A model generated the notes under the pieces. The model did not search any database. It saw only the letters and a list, made by a program, of their open reading frames with translations, and was not told the DNA's origin. The position numbers and the translations under genes were made by a program. DNA of 51,516 bases from positions 1 to 51,516 of the forward strand of contig CAMVDP010000014.1 in assembly GCA_947166275.1 (NCBI GenBank). The letters run 5' to 3'. This document shows, in pieces, positions 36,984 to 42,702 of this stretch. Each line of letters opens with the position of its first letter. The stretch's first letter is position 1. This stretch comes from an uncultured Clostridia bacterium (GTDB lineage Bacteria > Bacillota > Clostridia > Oscillospirales > Ruminococcaceae).

Positions 36984-37059
36984 CGCGGAGTGGAGCAGGT
37001 GGTAGCTCGTCGGGCTCATAACCCGAAGGTCGTAGGTTCAAGTCCTATCTCCGCAACCA
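36984..37059 (+). tRNA. Initiator tRNA-fMet (anticodon CAT)
   Basis: Full cloverleaf with encoded CCA (37057-37059) and anticodon CAT at 37017-37019. The first base pair is a C-A mismatch and the anticodon stem has three successive G-C pairs, both marks of the initiator tRNA. The 3' part from the anticodon loop onward belongs to the inserted element, which restores an intact tRNA. Confidence 0.95.
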
Positions 37060-37060
37060 A
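37015..37060 (+). repeat. Attachment site attL (46-bp direct repeat)
   Basis: From the first base of the anticodon loop to one base past the CCA, identical to 42657-42702. Looser similarity continues through the downstream terminator hairpin. Confidence 0.9.
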
Positions 37061-37063
37061 TTG

Positions 37064-37096
37064 AAAACCGCTTAACCAATAGGGTTGAGCGGTTTT
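37064..37096 (+). terminator. Terminator after tRNA-fMet (element copy)
   Basis: Hairpin with 14-nt arms (37064-37077 and 37083-37096) and one mismatch, ending in a T-run. A near copy lies after attR at about 42706-42738. Confidence 0.8.
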
Positions 37097-37139
37097 ATTC
37101 TTTGCCTGTTAAACTAAAATTTTAACATCATTTTCGGCA

Positions 37140-37161
37140 TTTGTCGCAAATTTGTCGCAAA
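37140..37161. repeat. Tandem 11-bp repeats, left integrase arm sites
   Basis: TTTGTCGCAAA occurs twice back to back (37140-37150, 37151-37161), between the terminator and the end of the integrase gene. The same unit recurs at the right end. Confidence 0.6.
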
Positions 37162-37230
37162 TCACTTGAAAAACTTTCGATGAGATATGAAAAGGCGGTA
37201 AGCTGTATTAGCCTATCGCCTTTTGTTTTA

Positions 37231-38619
37231 TTATCCGATTTTCTTGTTATTGTTATCCCTTCCCTTTTTGAGCATGGCGGCTATGTTATCAGCGGCTACG
37301 GCATCAGCAGACTGTAATTGATGACTATATATATTTCCTGTCGTTTGGATTGAAGCATGTCCTAATCGATCTGAAACTATCTTCAATGGCGTTCCTGCCG
37401 CTATCATCAAAGTCGCGTTTGTATGTCGGAGGGAGTGAACGCATACATCGGGAAGTTGTTTACGCTGTACGAACTCATGAAACCATTTGCTTATCGTGTC
37501 CGGGAATATGGGCTGCCCGTTATCCTTTGTGAATAATCTTCCGCTCTCCTGCCAATATGAACCGCGTTCGGCTTTTAGATCATTCTGCCATTTGCGATAT
37601 TCATTTATGATATCAAGCACATCTTCCGAAATCTTGATAACTCTTGTTGACTTGCGTGTCTTTGTCTTGCTCTCAAATATGCCCTTTTTAGGCAAATACA
37701 GCGAATTTTTGTGAACGTATATCTGTTTATTGATGAAGTCGATATCTTCCCAAGAGAGCCCGCAGAGCTCCGCACGGCGTAACCCGGTATGAACGAATAG
37801 CTGTATCATCACCGCGTATTGATACGGTTCACCTTCAAGAGCTTCAAAGAGTGCCGCCGCTCCGTTTTCGTCAAGATAACGGCTTTCTTTATACTCAACT
37901 TTTGGCGGCTTGACACGTTCGCAGGGATTGGAGAAGATCACCTGCCATTGTACGGCGGTTGAGAATATCGAGGACAAGAGAACGTGATGCTCACGGATTG
38001 TTTTGTCTGACAGTCCTTTATCTTCTCCGGGTTCAAATAGTTCGGTAAGCGGCACTTTGAAATGATCTGCAACCTTTTCCGCGGATTTTAAAGTCACCGT
38101 TCTCCCGTGCTTGCAGCTGCGCATTACCGATTGAGCAACACCGATATCTTTTCCGAGAGCTTCAAGGGATTTGCCTGTTTCCTTTATCGTATCCGCTAAT
38201 ATGGGGAGCGGTACATAGTTAATACATCTTACGCCTTTTTCGGCGAGGTTTTCGTAAAATTCAAGAAGGTGATGCGGCTGAATGGCTGACAGCTTCATAT
38301 TACCGAGAGCAACACCAATTCGCTTGTATATATCGCGATACCGTGCAACAGTCCGGGGTTCAAGCTGCTTTTCCGCATAGTCATTGAACCACTTTTCCGC
38401 GAAATCGTTTAGACGTGTGCTTTCATCAAGCACCTGCCCGGTTTTGCATTTCTGCTCAAATTCAGATGCGGCTTTTTCAACGAATTTCTGTTCCTGTTTA
38501 GGAGTAAGTCCGGGGGGCGGGGTGACTGTCTTGTACTTTCTTATGTGCTTGTTTTTGCCGTTGATACCGCATGAAACCGTTATCCTATAACTGTTCGCGC
38601 GTTTACAGATGTTTGCCAT
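37231..38619 (-). CDS. int: Tyrosine recombinase (integrase) with inserted XRE helix-turn-helix
   Basis: 462 aa. An N-terminal arm-binding part (about 1-60) is followed by the core-binding domain (about 67-240) and the catalytic domain (about 245-455). The catalytic residues are Arg281 (Thr-Gly-Leu-Arg-Arg-Ala-Glu-Leu), a Lys in the beta-hairpin near 320, His395-x-x-Arg398, His421 and Tyr431. The core-binding domain is interrupted at about 138-196 by a segment that reads like a complete XRE/Cro helix-turn-helix. It is next to the repressor gene (7 bp apart, same strand). It would integrate and excise the element at tRNA-fMet. Confidence 0.93.
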   Translation of the reverse strand: MANICKRANSYRITVSCGINGKNKHIRKYKTVTPPPGLTPKQEQKFVEKAASEFEQKCKTGQVLDESTRLNDFAEKWFNDYAEKQLEPRTVARYRDIYKRIGVALGNMKLSAIQPHHLLEFYENLAEKGVRCINYVPLPILADTIKETGKSLEALGKDIGVAQSVMRSCKHGRTVTLKSAEKVADHFKVPLTELFEPGEDKGLSDKTIREHHVLLSSIFSTAVQWQVIFSNPCERVKPPKVEYKESRYLDENGAAALFEALEGEPYQYAVMIQLFVHTGLRRAELCGLSWEDIDFINKQIYVHKNSLYLPKKGIFESKTKTRKSTRVIKISEDVLDIINEYRKWQNDLKAERGSYWQESGRLFTKDNGQPIFPDTISKWFHEFVQRKQLPDVCVHSLRHTNATLMIAAGTPLKIVSDRLGHASIQTTGNIYSHQLQSADAVAADNIAAMLKKGRDNNNKKIG

Positions 38620-38625
38620 TGTCCT

Positions 38626-41063: not shown

Positions 41064-41485
41064 CACCTGAAAAGCGCAAGGAAAACGCAAAAAACGCGGC
41101 AAAATCTCCTAAACGGCATCGTACAAAACAGATACGCGAATATGCCCGTGCTATATGCCGGAATCCTGCTCCTGATGCTGCACGTGCAGCACTTGCGAAA
41201 TACGGTATTTGTGATGAAGATTCGACAACATCGGCGTTAATAGCATTAGGCATTGTCGAAGCGGCACTTTCAGGTGATATGAAAGCCGTTGAGAAGGTCG
41301 AAAAGTATCTACATGAAGCGGACAACGAACGCGAACAGCTTGAATTGCGGTTGCTTGAAGCGCGTGTCCGTGCATTGGAAACGAAAACGGAAGCCGCTGA
41401 CCCGGTGCAAATAATCTTTTGCCCGCGTAGAACAGGTGAAAATGACGAACGAATATCTTGCGAGGAATGCGACGGACAATTCTGA
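41018..41485 (+). CDS. Small-terminase-like protein of the element
   Basis: 155 aa. A basic N-terminus with Asn-Ala-Lys-Asn-Ala-Ala-Lys-Ser is followed by helices with Thr-Ser-Ala-Leu-Ile-Ala-Leu-Gly-Ile-Val-Glu-Ala-Ala-Leu-Ser-Gly-Asp and a coiled-coil-like Glu/Leu-rich stretch (about 105-130). This general layout (Gly/Ala-rich basic start, then a helix with Gly-Asp) is common in short phage proteins often placed at the terminase small-subunit position. The assignment is tentative. A strong AAGGGGGTGA site precedes the start. It overlaps both neighbours. Confidence 0.45.
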   Translation: MPGGKGRINEYNESLTPEKRKENAKNAAKSPKRHRTKQIREYARAICRNPAPDAARAALAKYGICDEDSTTSALIALGIVEAALSGDMKAVEKVEKYLHEADNEREQLELRLLEARVRALETKTEAADPVQIIFCPRRTGENDERISCEECDGQF

Positions 41486-42173
41486 TGCAGTACGGCAGCT
41501 ATGGGATAACCTTTTCCCGTTCTATTGCAAAGCTTCATGGCAATTCTACCAAGCACACAAGGAACAATGTATCAGGCGCGGCGTAACGCTTGACGATATA
41601 CGACAGGAATGTTATTTTGCTATGCTTGACAGCATCAAAGCATTTAACCATAGAAGCCCGGAACAAGAAAACCTTCATTTCATTTCTTTTTGTGGATTCC
41701 CTTTCAAGAATCATGCGGCTGCACTTGCAGGAATACGCACAAGACGGAAAGACCCGCTTGATATTGCCGTGTCGCTTGATGAACCGTATAACGGCGATAC
41801 GGTTGAACGCTTGCAGCTTATCCCCGATGAGAGCGCACAAGTGCCGCTTGACAGAATAGACAGCGACGATTATAACAGAGCTGTCCGCGAAACAGTCCGG
41901 GAAGAATTGTGTGCTTATCCGCGAGAGCTTGAAGCAATCGAGCATTCATTCTATGAAGGACAGACGAACGAAGCGGCAGGGGCGTGCATGGGTGTATCTC
42001 ATCAATATGTAAGATCGTTGAAACGTTCCGCTCTCACCAGACTGAAACAAAGTGGAAAGCTCCGAACTCTGTTCTATGGAAATCCATATCGCACAGTCGG
42101 CGCGGCTGAATGCTTGCGCTCCGGTTCTATCGTTGAACAGCTTGTCGAGAAGGCAGAAAAACGGCGATTTTAG
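41442..42173 (+). CDS. Sigma-70-like protein of the element
   Basis: 243 aa. A region-2-like helix set (Leu-Asp-Asp-Ile-Arg-Gln-Glu-Cys...Ser-Ile-Lys-Ala-Phe) lies near 50-70, and a region-4-like helix-turn-helix (Thr-Asn-Glu-Ala-Ala-Gly-Ala-Cys-Met-Gly-Val-Ser-His-Gln-Tyr-Val-Arg) near 175-205. It is probably a phage-type sigma factor or late-gene activator. A GTG at 41436 is an alternative start. It overlaps the terminase-like gene by 44 bp. Confidence 0.75.
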   Translation: MTNEYLARNATDNSDAVRQLWDNLFPFYCKASWQFYQAHKEQCIRRGVTLDDIRQECYFAMLDSIKAFNHRSPEQENLHFISFCGFPFKNHAAALAGIRTRRKDPLDIAVSLDEPYNGDTVERLQLIPDESAQVPLDRIDSDDYNRAVRETVREELCAYPRELEAIEHSFYEGQTNEAAGACMGVSHQYVRSLKRSALTRLKQSGKLRTLFYGNPYRTVGAAECLRSGSIVEQLVEKAEKRRF

Positions 42174-42253
42174 CAACGTTCGTGCGTTAAACATCAAACT
42201 CTATATTGCCGAGATTTAAAATGCGGTACAGCGCATCACAGACAACATAAACG

Positions 42254-42294
42254 CAAGCGGCACTATTTCCGACATTCGGAACAAGTGCCGCTTG
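42254..42294 (+). repeat. Nested perfect hairpin after the sigma-like gene
   Basis: Outer arms of 11 bp (42254-42264, 42284-42294) and inner arms of 6 bp (42267-42272, 42276-42281) around a 3-nt loop. A terminator role is possible though the T-run is poor; an origin or packaging signal cannot be excluded. The gene-free stretch 42174-42656 otherwise holds only the right arm sites. Confidence 0.5.
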
Positions 42295-42451
42295 TATTGT
42301 TATCGTCGATATCATAAACGCGATAAAAACGCAAGGCGCACATTTGCCAAAATGGGGGCGTAGGATTTGTCGGGTTTTCCCGCAGGGCGCAAAGTACTTT
42401 GGACAGACTTGTCGAAAGTATCTTTGCGTTATTTACGTCATAGTTATATAA

Positions 42452-42539
42452 TTTGTCGCAAGTCATTTTTGAAAATCGCTCAACCATGCGGATTTGCAGT
42501 CAATATTTTGTTGCAAATTTGTCGCATTTTTGTCGCAAA
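42452..42539. repeat. 11-bp repeats, right integrase arm sites
   Basis: Four copies of the TTTGTCGCAAA unit: one at 42452-42462 (last base changed) and three exactly in tandem at 42507-42517, 42518-42528 and 42529-42539, with zero to two differences each. They match the two copies at the left end. Confidence 0.6.
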
Positions 42540-42656
42540 ATGTTACGAAAAACGGCATATTTTTTGAAAAAGATACAAATAGCTCAATCGCACAAAACCG
42601 CATTATAAAGCTGTTTCCGAATAATTACGAAAAATATCAAAAAGAAGAAAAACGCT

Positions 42657-42702
42657 CTCATAACCCGAAGGTCGTAGGTTCAAGTCCTATCTCCGCAACC
42701 AA
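42657..42702 (+). repeat. Attachment site attR (46-bp direct repeat)
   Basis: Identical to 37015-37060. It is the displaced 3' end of the original tRNA-fMet, followed by the tRNA's original terminator hairpin (about 42706-42738). Confidence 0.9.

Follow-up and report, generated by a model that had tools for sequence, protein, structure and literature searches.

What kind of mobile element sits in the initiator tRNA gene of an uncultured Ruminococcaceae bacterium (class Clostridia), and why does so small an element carry a sigma factor? The question is raised by a stretch of 51,516 nucleotides (GenBank assembly GCA_947166275.1, contig CAMVDP010000014.1), here called the window, which holds a 5.64-kb element with eight genes, all of them open. 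We hold with good confidence that this element is a phage satellite by nature. The fuller reading, which we consider likely, is that of a minimal satellite resembling the phage-inducible chromosomal islands (PICIs), with its own small terminase subunit (TerS) redirecting packaging and its own sigma factor probably steering late transcription; taken by itself, the late-gene role of the sigma factor is a tentative proposal. The satellite-like anatomy is supported by the exact attachment (att) ends, by a gene of the TerS position without a gene for the large terminase subunit (TerL), by the lack of recognised particle or relaxase genes, and by the recurrence of a similar gene plan elsewhere.

The limits of the element are sharp. 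The only tRNA that ARAGORN finds in the window is a tRNA-Met(CAT) at 36984-37059 on the plus strand, which we consider an initiator because of the C1.A72 mismatch and the GGG/CCC anticodon stem read in its sequence. An initial annotation of this DNA had described a 5.6-kb element with exact 46-bp ends in the initiator tRNA, and this is borne out: the two copies found by the repeat search (attL, 37015-37060, within the 3' part of the tRNA gene, and attR, 42657-42702, both on the plus strand) are identical at 46 of 46 positions and spaced 5642 bp apart, far beyond chance. The repeat starts in the anticodon loop and covers the rest of the tRNA, and the terminator trailing the tRNA is also present twice, in altered copies (37064-37096 and 42706-42736). 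Inside each end stand tandem 11-bp TTTGTCGCAAA-type repeats (family D1; 37139-37172 on the left and 42506-42539 on the right, no strand assigned), which are placed as integrase arm sites would be and probably serve as such. We regard the element as bounded, apparently intact, minimal, and satellite-like.

Within these limits, an integrase and a helix-turn-helix (HTH) repressor are encoded leftward, on the minus strand. The rightward operon, on the plus strand, has genes for a small basic protein, for Xis-like and DUF6291 proteins, for a nuclease, for a member of PHROG 2412, and for a sigma-like protein. The tyrosine integrase (37231-38619; 462 aa) is identified by Pfam (Phage_integrase, 8e-30), PHROG, alignment, and a structure model. 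Between its core-binding and catalytic domains it has an insert of about 60 residues of the Cro/C1 HTH type (about residues 139-194), which is present in 7 of 10 aligned integrases (those of the window and of loci L010, L019, L020, L074, L075, and L121; it is absent from L012, L017, and L078) and which appears in the predicted structure of the window integrase as short helices, with a predicted local distance difference test score (pLDDT) of about 82-95 for the block. The CI/Stl-type repressor (38626-39258; 210 aa) matches HTH_3 at 2e-8 and PHROG 8 at 1e-15. In the control region at 39317-39422, consensus matches alone place two convergent promoters facing each other, a leftward one of the extended -10 type with 12 of 12 positions and a rightward one with 10 of 12. 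These are host-type promoters, so the early steps should not require the element's sigma factor. A third leftward match (11 of 12, at 39681-39709) lies antisense to the gene for the small basic protein and is aimed at the repressor; judged by its placement, it could be an establishment promoter.

The first gene of the operon encodes the small basic protein (39457-39630, profile-scanned as 39406-39630), which is of the AxRAYQRxWRxKN type and belongs to PHROG 34302/14214, of unknown function; proteins resembling it by eye occur in L012, L013, L078, and L086. It is followed by the Xis-like HTH_17 protein (39729-40022; 97 aa), whose Pfam match of 4e-4 is under the cut-off, and by the DUF6291 protein (40027-40680; 217 aa; Pfam 7e-23). 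The latter may be a replication initiator, and one of its phage relatives carries the annotation 'replication protein'. The nuclease (40692-41063; 123 aa) is of the PDDEXK, Holliday-junction-resolvase (RusA/Hjc) type (PHROG 244, 1.5e-22; two Pfam matches under the cut-off) and shares 40 of 91 residues (44%) with a protein encoded on the circular record MT836267. The integrase, repressor, Xis-like, DUF6291, nuclease, and sigma-like genes named in the initial annotation are thus all open and all have profile matches, that of the Xis-like protein being under the cut-off. Pfam and PHROG scans of the eight proteins recognised no large terminase, portal, capsid, tail, or lysis family; no structural or lytic family scored better than E 0.001, and one portal-named PHROG matched the TerS-position protein at E 0.05. 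No relaxase family was matched (Pfam; an origin of transfer, oriT, was not searched for), in line with the particle and conjugation genes having been described as lacking, and no primase was recognised among the eight proteins.

The gene at 41018-41485 encodes a protein of 155 aa that matches PHROG 2412, annotated 'unknown', at 5e-6, plus one weaker PHROG. It had been called small-terminase-like. No terminase-named family in Pfam or PHROG matched it, and a TerS identity by profile was dropped in favor of gene position in phages. Genome G030 encodes a relative with 28% identity, which matches PHROG 2412 at 1e-28 and has matches in 63 phage records. In all three annotated streptococcal phages opened (Javan394, SpGS-1, and Javan23), the PHROG 2412 gene overlaps the start of terL, and the following gene is TerL by Pfam in four of five further loci (L148, L150, L151, and the faecal record MT835491; L146 is unconfirmed). 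Because the family sits at the TerS position in phages, we call the window gene a small-terminase-position gene; the earlier name stands as to place and not as to profile. Sigma and TerS-type genes are adjacent or close to each other in the window, in L009, L080, L081 (where the PHROG 2412-type match is short), and L082, and on contig MT837364 (L158).

The last gene of the operon, at 41442-42173, encodes a sigma-70-family protein of about 243 aa, identified by Pfam, PHROG, a family profile, and a structure model. The ATG at 41442 is a likelier start than the GTG at 41436 because of the family alignment. Downstream, a long inverted repeat (I1, 42241-42307, plus strand) may be the operon terminator. 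Pfam recognises sigma region 4 in the window protein (2e-7), and region 2 is recognised by Pfam in the sister proteins and for the family as a whole by comparison with SigA: a profile of 22 members matches solved SigA at 3e-34 over positions 7-215. The protein is made up of regions 2 and 4 with little between them. The AlphaFold2 model (mean pLDDT 86, predicted template modeling score 0.46) has two confident helical parts and a weaker stretch between, and the top-ranked Foldseek matches are sigma factors, with a probability near 1.

This sigma gene has relatives well beyond the window. A family-profile search of 295 genomes of the order, taking matches of E 2.5e-22 and below, gave 18 places in 14 genomes with the window counted in, and all but one of the matches begin at profile positions 2-6. 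Weaker matches mostly begin further inside and look like housekeeping sigmas; one of the weaker matches, G343:C48 (E 3.3e-14), lies outside the opened loci. A match at L088 (E 1.5e-18) was dropped as a family member: it is a distinct sigma, and its neighbour is by eye a MobV-like (plasmid mobilisation) gene. A tyrosine integrase or serine recombinase lies close by at 15 of the 17 places besides the window (L083 by eye); those without a recognised integrase are L072, which is at a contig end, and L082, for which the statement covers the fetched stretch. L072 and L083, both at contig ends, were read by eye only. In 13 of the 21 loci tested there are direct repeats that reach into a tRNA gene and include its 3' part (the tRNAs are those for Thr, Arg, Leu, Trp, or Met), giving elements of about 5-16 kb; in one of these 13, L017, no sigma gene was seen by eye. 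The replication modules differ from element to element, with primase or DUF3987 types, DnaB, DnaC, or DnaD types, and a G2P-type Rep. Among the families listed for 189 of the 214 open reading frames (ORFs) of 20 elements, a listing that takes in all matched families but three from Pfam, there is no TerL, portal, capsid, relaxase, or type IV secretion system.

Several sister elements carry other phage-type genes in addition. A tape-measure gene is recognised by PHROGs or Pfam in five of them (L075, L077, L080, L085, and L087), and the tails of a helper could be altered by such a tape measure on its own. L080 has an HK97-gp10-like gene and a Terminase_2 gene, L082, L085, and L087 together yield one tail-chaperone match, and L085 has a PHROG 36 'transcriptional regulator' beside its sigma gene. 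The L158 contig, otherwise read by eye, has a tape-measure gene too, and no capsid or portal gene was recognised in the tape-measure carriers. In L081, an ORF at 8976-9470 lies between the sigma gene and a gene for a coiled-coil protein and overlaps the short PHROG 2412-type match; by eye it resembles a late regulator of the ArpU/RinA type, and L085 has a similar gene, the one matching PHROG 36. A coiled-coil-looking protein of 200-280 aa recurs by eye in L018, L073, L077, L080, L081, L087, L120, L158, and L159, often near the sigma or TerS gene. The L018 protein has no family match, and among the phage records the L081 copy matches only two faecal contigs; a scaffold or assembly factor is a possible identity.

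The same tRNA site is occupied in related genomes, where the initial annotation had suggested looking for the same gene order. A goat-rectum Clostridia metagenome-assembled genome, RGIG3072, has an 8.64-kb element in a tRNA-Met(CAT), inserted at the corresponding point and bounded by an exact repeat of 45 bp; it has a sigma gene, and its integrase is 46% identical to that of the window (residues 1-455 matched). A query made from the surroundings of the tRNA matched in 62 of 71 genomes of the genus. Integrase-repressor elements stand at tRNA-Met in three further genomes: G075 has one of 9.3 kb that includes a sigma gene, G005 has one of 4.8 kb in which no sigma was seen, and G004 probably has two in tandem, with short frames. 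G089 and G034 have a single copy of the core in the stretches of about 11 kb that were taken, which is a site without an element, and G029 (L122) has a partial copy of the tRNA. An empty-site search through the downstream flanking gene found no tRNA in the six loci scanned and was less productive than the tRNA-based search. With respect to the integrase-sigma axis, the att core of L020 has the opposite orientation to that of the window: the integrase is at the attR end in L020 and at the tRNA end in the window. The genes on either side of the window element (34862-36685 and 43130-44152) both encode products with a GGDEF motif, as read from the translations.

Circular records are found in a human faecal set. 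MT836843, a relative from a Mexican faecal sample, has 8514 bases with an exact terminal repeat of 124 bases, and because such a repeat is what an assembler leaves on circles, we read it as a circle of 8390 bp. It encodes an integrase, a repressor, a sigma factor, and, by eye, DUF6291-like, Abi-type, and CopG-like proteins. A single stretch resembling a tRNA 3' end, at 3325, is flanked by GGGTGTT-type arm repeats at 3189 and 3420, an arrangement that looks attP-like. MT836267 (MT836267.1, L159; 11,334 bases) is circular in the same way and carries integrase, repressor, primase, nuclease, TerS-like, and TerL genes; no sigma and no capsid gene was seen in it by eye. These two are the records with terminal repeats among seven whole records of the faecal series that were checked. 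In the likely source study, virus-like particles were the material sequenced, and IDBA-UD served for the assembly, at k 20-125 (PMC8361208); the link is made by inference, since the accession prefixes tried are absent from its main text.

Delta, the transcription activator of the satellite P4, and sigma-70 belong to different protein families. Their logic may be shared: delta/Ogr, encoded by the satellite, is described as homologous to a transcription activator of phages and as promoting late genes, which is what we propose for the element's sigma factor (PMC8628076). No family of the P4 set (psu, delta, sid, epsilon, alpha, and alpA) is listed for the eight element proteins in Pfam or PHROG. 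PICIs are defined by an integrase, a master regulator, and a replication module, with no structural or lytic genes, and are typically 12-15 kb (PMC6092414). Their other marks are an att site that prophages never use, genes orthologous to those of known PICIs, and excision, packaging, and interference induced by a helper; as to the site, tRNA-Met is used by elements like the present one. Like these islands and the Staphylococcus aureus pathogenicity islands (SaPIs), the element has an integrase, a divergent repressor, an early operon, and a putative TerS-type gene, and no structural or lytic genes were recognised (PMC6092414). Integrase and repressor are present, while the replication module would be DUF6291 plus nuclease, with no primase. 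As to SaPI-type packaging, a TerS-position gene is recognised by family homology (E 5e-6) and no TerL is recognised among the eight proteins. The element differs in having a sigma-70-family gene and no recognised primase or capsid-size genes. The initial annotation had put the sigma gene in place of these, and the gene is indeed there, but as an addition beside the TerS-position gene, and replication may be served by DUF6291 and the nuclease.

The Vibrionaceae phage-inducible chromosomal minimalist islands (PICMIs), whose prototype has 6110 bp and six genes, are likewise very small and without capsid remodelling genes (PMC10803314). They carry int, alpA, and prim (DUF3987/DUF5906) and use the fis site (PMC10803314). 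The window element lies in tRNA-fMet and has TerS-position and sigma genes; of the PICMI gene set it has the integrase and an Xis-like PF12728 match under the cut-off, without a recognised primase. In the PICMI paper, 'Sigma' appears solely as a supplier's name (PMC10803314). We do not file the element under PICI, PICMI, or P4, because it misses the size of the first and the gene sets of the other two; by analogy, its working would be nearest to that of a PICI. Xpf, a sigma factor of phage origin, is said to regulate the late cassette of PBSX (PMC8347963). It resembles our proposal in being a phage sigma that acts on late genes, and the prophage copy of our family stands before TerS; it differs in that the element carries a sigma without the late genes it would serve, and the likeness to Xpf is one of description. 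We propose the late-gene role mainly because of the linkage of sigma and TerS genes together with this action of Xpf (PMC8347963).

On the satellite reading, a helper phage, infecting or induced, would relieve the CI-type repressor, as SaPI and P4 biology suggests, and the Xis-like protein, the DUF6291 protein, and the nuclease would be expressed next, from the host-type promoters. The element would excise and might replicate by means of DUF6291 and the nuclease, and its TerS, joined to the large terminase of the helper, would aim the helper's motor at element DNA. The sigma factor, whose gene comes last in the operon, would guide the RNA polymerase of the host to late promoters belonging to the helper, the element, or both, with the result that capsid and tail genes are made while the satellite is active; alternatively, it may draw the polymerase away from the helper's own programme. 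In its widest form the proposal, which we offer as no better than an open possibility, is that a minimal satellite family across an order of gut-type Clostridia uses a dedicated sigma-70 factor, in some elements beside an own TerS and in some with a tape measure, to control the late (packaging and tail) programme of the helper, as a sigma counterpart of P4 delta.

The strongest competitor, which we still judge unlikely, accepts the satellite and lets the sigma serve the element alone, for its own replication, TerS, or excision genes or in competition with helper regulators, and not the late genes of the helper. The place of the sigma gene as the final gene of the element's own operon fits this, as does its presence in sister elements without an identified TerS gene (e.g., L012, L078, and L084). 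The early promoters, however, already match the host consensus, so that an own sigma seems needless there, and the single prophage copy seen, in an apparent prophage of G034 (L009), stands directly before TerS (PHROG 83), and further along that prophage come a TerL-portal gene and one for a prohead protease.

Could the element instead be a small integrative and mobilizable element without a relaxase, conjugating in trans through an oriT mimic? Tn916-type conjugative elements carry small sigma-like genes, and the distinct sigma of L088 adjoins the MobV-like gene, but no relaxase or type IV secretion family is listed for the scanned elements (oriT not searched for), the sister elements hold tape-measure, tail, and TerS genes, and the integrase has no match among plasmid records at 1e-40, which makes this improbable. 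A decayed prophage retaining its left end and a few genes is likewise improbable, for although the element genes have phage-type relatives, the TerS-position and sigma genes do occur in prophages, and some sister copies are broken, here the att ends are exact, all ORFs in the window element are open, a TerS-position gene without TerL would be an atypical leftover, and many genomes have the same kind of compact plan, combined with varied replication modules. The initial annotation had named confinement of these genes to full prophages as the mark of such decay. This is not what is observed: against the one prophage copy of the sigma gene there are 17 places without a visible prophage, of which L072 is cut by a contig end.

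Several observations weigh against the satellite reading or parts of it. No helper, excision, or packaging was seen and no resident helper is in evidence; the host genome, which is 81% complete in 49 contigs, has no intact prophage as far as one portal, one capsid, and one terminase family can tell. HK97-type portal and capsid found no match in it. A host TerL match was rejected as a helper, since the TerL and SPP1-type portal pair (G000:C1; L154, 15550-18063) stands beside a gene that is PurL-like by eye, with no other phage genes nearby by eye; the pair is a prophage remnant. The element's 5.64 kb is short of the 12-15 kb typical of PICIs (PMC6092414), so that the likeness to a phage-inducible island proposed initially, with the remark that this one is smaller, holds for the anatomy and not for the size. 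The TerS-position gene has no direct tblastn match in 50,697 phage records and is tied to its family through PHROG 2412 (E 5e-6) and the 28%-identical relative. The Foldseek TM-scores of the sigma model are low (0.26-0.36 by query length, among the matches listed), which may come from the placement of the modelled domains or from a real difference. The sigma frame is interrupted by a stop in L074 and L079, integrase frames are short in L011 and L079, and sigma matches are short in L010 and L011. IMG/VR, searched with four sigma proteins, gave no relative, nor did a genome scan with one sigma protein; one IMG/VR scan returned integrase relatives, all of them weak. In the faecal series, MT837733, MT837056, and MT835736 look like pieces of host chromosome, so the set holds host DNA and presence in it is weak proof of packaging.

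Satellites are known mainly from cocci, enterics, and Vibrio. In searches of one open library, no described sigma-using satellite family in Clostridia was found; where the papers listed mention a sigma factor together with satellites, it is in a reference list or as the phage factor Xpf, and not as a factor borne by a satellite. If the satellite reading is true, it would extend the satellite class to Clostridia, in a very small form, and the element would be the first satellite known to us that brings its own sigma factor. In that case, one protein and defined promoters would make the takeover of helper transcription by a satellite open to test.

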